From an uncultured Pelagibacteraceae bacterium (GTDB lineage Bacteria; Pseudomonadota; Alphaproteobacteria; Pelagibacterales; Pelagibacteraceae), in assembly GCA_902589795.1 (NCBI GenBank), contig CACIUJ010000003.1:1-54540 (forward strand): DNA of 54,540 nucleotides, read 5' to 3'. The notes under the pieces were generated by a model that was not told the DNA's origin, ran no database searches, and saw only the letters and a program-made list of their open reading frames with translations. Every line of letters begins with the position of its first letter. Positions within the stretch are counted from its first letter, which is position 1. Below are positions 17,246 through 46,375 of the stretch, one piece after another. The translations under genes were made by a program, and so were the position numbers.

Positions 17246-17270
17246 CTTGCGGAGAGCGAATCTCCGCAAG
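17246..17270. other. Perfect 10-bp GC-rich hairpin with GCGAA loop, no T-tract
   Basis: CTTGCGGAGA-GCGAA-TCTCCGCAAG in the 41-bp convergent gap between the lipoprotein and hsp20. Confidence 0.9.
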
Positions 17271-17282
17271 CAAGGCTCCAAC

Positions 17283-17723
17283 TTATTTTATTGGAATTAG
17301 CTTCTTTTTCTTTTGTTCTGGCACAATTTTTTCACAGTTTATCGTCAAAAGACCATCTTTAAGTTCTGCACCACTTACTTTTACGTCATCGGCAATTGTA
17401 AATGATCTAGAAAATGATCTCTGAGATATTCCCTTATGAATTATCTCGCTACCATCTTTTTCAACAGTTTTATTAACTTTTTTCGTTTTAACTGTTAAAA
17501 GTTTATCTTCAAACTCAACTTCAACATCATCTTTATTAAAGCCAGCAACAGCTACTTCAATAGCATACTTATCTTTTCCAGCCTTTCTGATATTGTACGG
17601 GGGATAGTTGCTTTGAACCATTCCACCATTACCCAACATTGATTCAAACTGATCAAACATGTCGTCAAATCCAATGCTGAAAGGTCTAAGAGAGTTAAAG
17701 ATTGATAAATCCTTACTTGTCAT
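17283..17723 (-). CDS. Small heat shock protein (Hsp20/IbpA family)
   Basis: 'GFDDMFDQFESML', alpha-crystallin domain 'YAIEVAVAGFNKDDVEVEFEDKLLTV', 'ISQRSFSRSFTIADDVKVSGAELKDGLLTI'. Confidence 0.95.
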   Translation of the reverse strand: MTSKDLSIFNSLRPFSIGFDDMFDQFESMLGNGGMVQSNYPPYNIRKAGKDKYAIEVAVAGFNKDDVEVEFEDKLLTVKTKKVNKTVEKDGSEIIHKGISQRSFSRSFTIADDVKVSGAELKDGLLTINCEKIVPEQKKKKLIPIK

Positions 17724-17727
17724 ATTT

Positions 17728-17746
17728 ACCTCCTCTTTAGCAAGGT
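17728..17746 (-). promoter_or_regulatory. ROSE-like RNA thermometer hairpin sequestering the hsp20 Shine-Dalgarno
   Basis: Transcript-sense ACCUUGCUAAAGAGGAGGU: ROSE signature UUGCU opposite AGGA (U-A, U-G, G.G, bulged C, U-A), AAAG loop, ACC/GGU base stem; AUG 4 nt downstream. Confidence 0.7.
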
Positions 17747-17815
17747 TAATTTATATAAGTCCCACAATGGCAACTTATTAAAATTTATGTAGGAATGATT
17801 TTTAAAATTTCAAGA

Positions 17816-46280: not shown

Positions 46281-46375
46281 GGAGGCTGGCGACGGGTGGA
46301 ATTTTTTGAACAACCCGGTCAGGACGGAAACGTAGCAGCCGTAACGAAATATTCCAGGTTGTTGTTCAGTCTCCT
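46281..46375 (+). ncRNA. ffs: Signal recognition particle RNA (small, 4.5S type)
   Basis: GGAGGCTG...CAGTCTCC terminal pairing; conserved core GGTCAGGACGGAAACGTAGCAGCC with GNRA tetraloop. Confidence 0.95.

Follow-up and report, generated by a model that had tools for sequence, protein, structure and literature searches.

SAR11 bacteria are among the most abundant cells of the sea and carry very few regulators, and the hsp20 leader of one of them raises the question of whether the messenger RNA itself may respond to temperature. The gene lies in a window of 54,540 nt, which is the whole stretch of DNA analysed here and comes from an uncultured Pelagibacteraceae bacterium (contig CACIUJ010000003.1). 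An RNA thermometer shared across the family, if true, would be one of the direct temperature responses of SAR11, and as such relevant to warming. On the evidence set out below, the leader of hsp20 is very likely a short ROSE-like RNA thermometer built of two hairpins. This reading draws on the sequence itself, the conservation of two hairpins with compensatory change, the restriction of the element to hsp20, the promoter pattern and the presence of rpoH.

The hsp20 leader and its promoter

The gene under control encodes an IbpA-like small heat-shock protein (Table 1), to which the NCBIfam IbpA model assigns an E value of 4e-28, yet a score under the cut-off of the model. Immediately 5' of the open reading frame (ORF), which starts at 17723, the minus strand carries ACCUUGCUAAAGAGGAGGUaaauAUG (17746-17721), within which ACCUUGCU (17746-17739), including the anti-Shine-Dalgarno strand CCUUGCU, opposes the Shine-Dalgarno (SD) sequence of hsp20. 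The pairing drawn in the original prediction, with ACCU/AGGU at the base, U-U-G-C-U against A-G-G-A and an AAAG loop, can be reproduced exactly in the sequence, and the SD does lie inside the hairpin, as had been proposed. Downstream of the gene, a strong inverted repeat, CTTGCGGAGAGCGAATCTCCGCAAG (17247-17272), separates hsp20 from a convergent small lipoprotein-like ORF and is likely a two-way terminator; elsewhere in the window, a bacterial small SRP RNA was found at 46283-46375 (RF00169, 40.6 bits, barely over threshold).

Table 1. Positions of the elements of the hsp20 locus in the window
Feature	Position	Strand	Remarks
hsp20, IbpA-like small heat-shock protein gene (controlled gene)	17283..17723	-	146 aa; PF00011, 66 bits
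AGUAAGG, codons 3-5	17711..17717	-	Complementary to CCUUGCU; possible SD-freeing competitor, a lead only
Hairpin II, putative thermosensing SD hairpin	17728..17746	-	ACCUUGCU-AAAG-AGGAGGU; ROSE motif UUGCU versus AGGA
Shine-Dalgarno AGGAGG	17729..17734	-	Inside hairpin II
Hairpin I, AUAAGU-UGCC-AUUGU-GGG-ACUUAU	17755..17778	-	9 pairs; 99.3% of cells paired and 5 pairs compensatory over 83 leaders
Sigma32-type promoter, -10	17787..17793	-	CCTACAT; CCCATAT in most relatives
Sigma32-type promoter, -35	17808..17814	-	CTTGAAA

Judged by folding energy alone, hairpin II is no better than chance: its 19-mer has a minimum free energy of -3.3 kcal/mol (z -1.1), a stability equalled or exceeded by 30 of 200 shuffles. 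It is conservation, not energy, that settles hairpin II as real.

The original prediction had found no convincing sigma32-like promoter, a view that did not hold up. Set against the sigma32 consensus, a promoter of this type is present as CTTGAAA-N14-CCTACAT (17814-17787, minus strand), and a degenerate form of the pattern, with the same spacing throughout, is shared by 82 of 86 host leaders, versus 0.9% of background windows. The genome also encodes rpoH, detected above the curated cut-off, while a sigma70 scan of the hsp20 strand returned no promoter. The first base pair of hairpin I comes approximately 9 nt past the -10 element, close to the predicted start of transcription; as transcription is expected, from the position of the -10, to begin at the base of hairpin I, the leader would be about 55 nt long.

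Two conserved hairpins in SAR11 hosts

Conservation was assessed on an alignment of 83 distinct hsp20 leaders from Pelagibacteraceae. The motif U[UC]GCU facing the SD, whose loss in related genomes had been named as a point that would tell against a thermometer, is retained throughout the alignment. None of the 83 departs from UUGCU or GGAG, and only L010 and L089 have another base in place of the A before GGAG (TGGA for AGGA). RNAalifold returned two hairpins rather than one, the additional, covarying hairpin (hairpin I, 17778-17755) being placed directly upstream of the SD hairpin. The idea that the SD of hsp20 is covered by a compact thermosensor of the ROSE type is well supported on comparative grounds, UYGCU/AGGA being retained in related genomes, whereas the single hairpin in which it had been cast has to be given up.

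With both hairpins taken as the structure, 99.4% of pair cells are canonical across the 83 leaders and 6 of the 15 pairs undergo two-sided changes. Such changes account for 68 cells, versus 15.5 in shuffles, none of which (0/500) reached the observed value; the compensatory substitutions in related SAR11 genomes, proposed earlier as a check, were found. When partners were slid by one to three columns, pairing dropped to 36-66% and the covariation signal collapsed. The bulk of this signal sits in hairpin I, where, for example, pair 29-48 occurs as CG, UA, AU, UG and GC. Hairpin II features a compensatory change in three hosts, from C-G to A-U (ACUUGCU...AGGAGU), and its upper part is devoid of host covariation because the SD, and hence that part of the hairpin, is nearly invariant.

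The alignment also reveals a core in hairpin I in which UYGCC lies opposite GGGR with one additional G on the 5' side, lopsided like the ROSE motif, as though this motif occurred twice in the leader.

Distribution, specificity and the leaders of marine phages

A covariance model, R1, was built from 56 host leaders and from hosts only. In the genome of the window it registers one real site (17721-17779, 56.6 bits), the runner-up having an E value of 1.65. Within the Pelagibacteraceae, R1 matches 192 of 247 genomes, 99 of the 102 near-complete ones and 12 of 14 genera, in a count that took matches up to E 1 and therefore includes a few weak ones. In a class-wide alphaproteobacterial sample, 10 of 289 genomes match at E <= 0.05, three of them being Pelagibacteraceae; four of the remaining matches stand at the opening of proteins with the Hsp20 PPYN motif. 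Two class-level matches look spurious and were discarded, one preceding a 331-aa protein which is not Hsp20-like (L466) and the other a 10-aa frame (L467). E. coli ibpA is not matched by R1, which indicates that the model is not merely a generic ROSE detector.

Phage hsp20 loci emerged from the same protein search as the host relatives, and three further scans added more. Despite being host-built, R1 gave matches at the start of hsp20 for nearly all of the 34 phage loci scanned, the best of them at E 1e-8. The phages bearing the motif on hsp20 comprise cyanophages, pelagiphages and a methylophage, among them HTVC008M, Mosig, HTVC103P, HTVC115P, P-SSM4, S-SSM5, Syn33, S-H9-1 and the methylophage Melnitz. 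Altogether, 246 of 253 hsp20 leaders from phages (loci L099-L182 and L220-L459) contain U[UC]GCU...AGGA. Every one of the 246 has a canonical pair adjoining the motif (CG 90, GC 77, AU 63, UG 16), against a shuffle expectation of about 43%. After thinning to 37 dissimilar genes, this pair is still canonical in 37 of 37, versus 65% in shuffles. The variation of the closing pair in phages thus amounts to compensatory change within hairpin II. A hairpin I with a strict UGCC/GGG-type core was recovered in 156 of 185 phage leaders, and core variants such as UGCUC/GAGG occur in the HTVC103P group.

Two further features of these leaders deserve mention. In 28 of 185 phage leaders, hairpin I is immediately preceded by a T4-type late-promoter-like NATAAATA, approximately 63-81 nt before hsp20, at the place where hosts have the sigma32-type -10. 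Moreover, in a variant group of six loci (L016, L118, L135, L146, L147 and L156), CUGUCU replaces UUGCU facing the SD and the upstream hairpin is different, as in GGGUGCUUUGGAAAGGCCC; L016 comes from a SAR11 genome and the other five loci from viral contigs.

The element is limited to hsp20 and near-absent before other genes. Among other host genes with an AGGA SD at the same loci, the motif occurs in 2 of 137, with a canonical closing pair in neither, and among non-hsp20 viral genes with an AGGA SD at the same loci, motif and canonical closing pair coincide in at most 1 of about 116; the 11 viral control matches with a canonical closing pair were all hsp20 leaders still left in the set. An ordinary strong SD facing a chance anti-SD, with no regulation involved, would agree with the energy of the single hairpin, which falls within the range of shuffles, but the invariance over 83 hosts, the covariation of hairpin I and of the phage closing pair, and the near-absence of the motif before other genes all contradict it. 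We assign this reading almost no credence and reject it on the grounds of conservation.

With moderate confidence, we propose that the hsp20 genes of marine phages carry host-like, two-hairpin, ROSE-like thermometers of their own, through which seawater temperature would dose the chaperone, and that Hsp20 of the host might regulate the phage leader and vice versa. To judge from sequence, the SAR11 cell and the marine phage probably both tune chaperone output to temperature. The phage-borne element is the newest part of these results; no earlier description was found in the open-access literature searched. In the same literature, no RNA thermometer is described in SAR11 or on a phage hsp20, a scope within which novelty stays unproven; the main text of Meyer et al. 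2009 on Pelagibacter RNAs (PMC2704228) mentions neither hsp20 nor a thermometer. Known phage RNA thermometers are very few, and that of blyA has been described as just the second from a phage (PMC11182007). If hundreds of marine phages have such an element on hsp20, this handful would grow into a large natural set and, as isolates of both host and phage exist, the element is directly testable.

Proposed temperature response and relation to known thermometers

In the proposed mechanism, the sigma32-type promoter would yield an mRNA whose leader begins at or beside hairpin I. In the cold, CCUUGCU would hold the SD in hairpin II, allowing only poor ribosome binding; in this hairpin, UUGCU would lie across from AGGA with two G residues facing one another and one C bulged out, an arrangement in which the sequence permits a syn G-G pair. 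Upon warming, the weak hairpin II would open, exposing the SD and leading to the synthesis of Hsp20. Hairpin I, the stable upstream hairpin, probably isolates hairpin II or aids its folding.

Folding was predicted with RNAfold between 5 and 45 °C. Hairpin II of the window, taken alone, opened slowly, from 0.05 to 0.30, in an energy model which does not include the G-G pair. Relatives had a mean SD openness of approximately 0.6 with no temperature trend, many being open throughout. The E. coli ibpA element, a validated thermometer used as a control, was closed at every temperature and showed no melting. The outcome varied with the amount of coding sequence included. Since RNAfold misses the melting of the E. 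coli element and cannot score the G-G pair, the lack of strong predicted sequestration in many relatives counts little; given its dependence on coding length and its failure on the same control, its output was not taken as evidence of thermosensing.

Temperature could alternatively act through chaperone titration instead of direct melting, if the leader served chiefly as the operator through which Hsp20 represses itself. In E. coli, IbpA attaches to the 5'UTR of its own mRNA, and Arg93 and Tyr34 are required for mRNA binding and self-repression (PMC10474464). At the corresponding positions, the Hsp20 of the window and 7 of 7 aligned phage Hsp20s have Arg and either Tyr or Phe, so that autorepression may act on the same leader, and both hairpin I and its loop-proximal GCC/GGG are conserved beyond the needs of a plain SD clamp. 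However, Arg93 is reported to be common in alpha- and gammaproteobacterial IbpAs, and hence is not specific, and K98 is not conserved in the window protein. We regard a mainly autorepressive role as rather unlikely, and such a role could co-act with the thermometer.

A bistable switch appears decidedly improbable. Here CCUUGCU would pair with the SD in the off state and with AGUAAGG of codons 3-5 in the on state. Lys4 is encoded by AAG in 116 of 119 genes and by AAA in none, while the genome prefers AAA, with AAG making up 12-18% of Lys codons elsewhere, and the neighbouring codons vary freely. In the window, the AGUAAGG helix is predicted to be about 2 kcal/mol more stable than the SD hairpin (-6.2 versus -4.1 kcal/mol), although the energies compared omit the G-G pair of hairpin II. 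The alternative helix features no compensatory change, since UUGCU is invariant, and AGUAAGG is absent from genes with other N-termini (L013-L015, L502-L504) and from the phage starts examined, where the thermometer is nevertheless retained.

Returning to the ROSE-like thermometer, the leader was compared with described families. A search with the Rfam ROSE models had been suggested at the outset, and none of them recognises the window: RF00435, RF01832 and RF02523 gave no match at E up to 10. RF00435 did not match the genomes of 21 relatives either, and Rfam scans of the window, 37 relative and phage loci and 19 further SAR11 loci yielded no ROSE family above threshold. The nearest model to the window leader is RF02523 (ROSE_3), which we take to be built from the Pseudomonas ibpA element. 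Sub-threshold scores were registered in three SAR11 relatives (ROSE_3 26.8, ROSE_3 23.0 and ROSE_2 22.8 bits), ROSE_2 matching one relative only, and weakly; the Melnitz phage leader reached 34 bits with ROSE_3, whose gathering threshold is 43, and E. coli ibpA, the positive control, scored 100 bits with ROSE_2. The leader would work like a ROSE-like thermometer, yet by score it is outside the existing Rfam ROSE families.

With FourU thermometers, including that of blyA in phage SPbeta, it shares an imperfect anti-SD hairpin covering the SD, but a FourU assignment was rejected, as no UUUU lies opposite AGGA and the anti-SD strand CCUUGCU contains UUGCU instead. Classical ROSE elements (RF00435, Bradyrhizobium hspA; RF01832 or ROSE_2, E. 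coli ibpA) similarly have a sigma32-type promoter, precede a small heat-shock protein gene and pair UYGCU with AGGA in their final hairpin, but fold into three to four hairpins, compared with two in the SAR11 leader. The features of the ROSE-like class found here are U(U/C)GCU imperfectly pairing with the SD in the 3'-proximal hairpin, two hairpins in the 5'UTR and a small heat-shock protein gene downstream.

Of the systems described so far, the Pseudomonas ibpA leader comes closest; it is a validated ROSE-like thermometer of 61-62 nt with two hairpins and UYGCU against the SD, in which hairpin II suffices for thermosensing and hairpin I is stable (PMC3669281). The authors of that study had found no single-hairpin ROSE element, with which the two-hairpin leader of the window is in keeping. 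The SAR11 leader differs in being AU-rich and, in the window, in not being recognised by RF02523; it shares with the Pseudomonas element a length of about 60 nt, a fold of two hairpins of which the 3' one opposes U(U/C)GCU to the SD, an AUG outside the structure and a small heat-shock protein gene.
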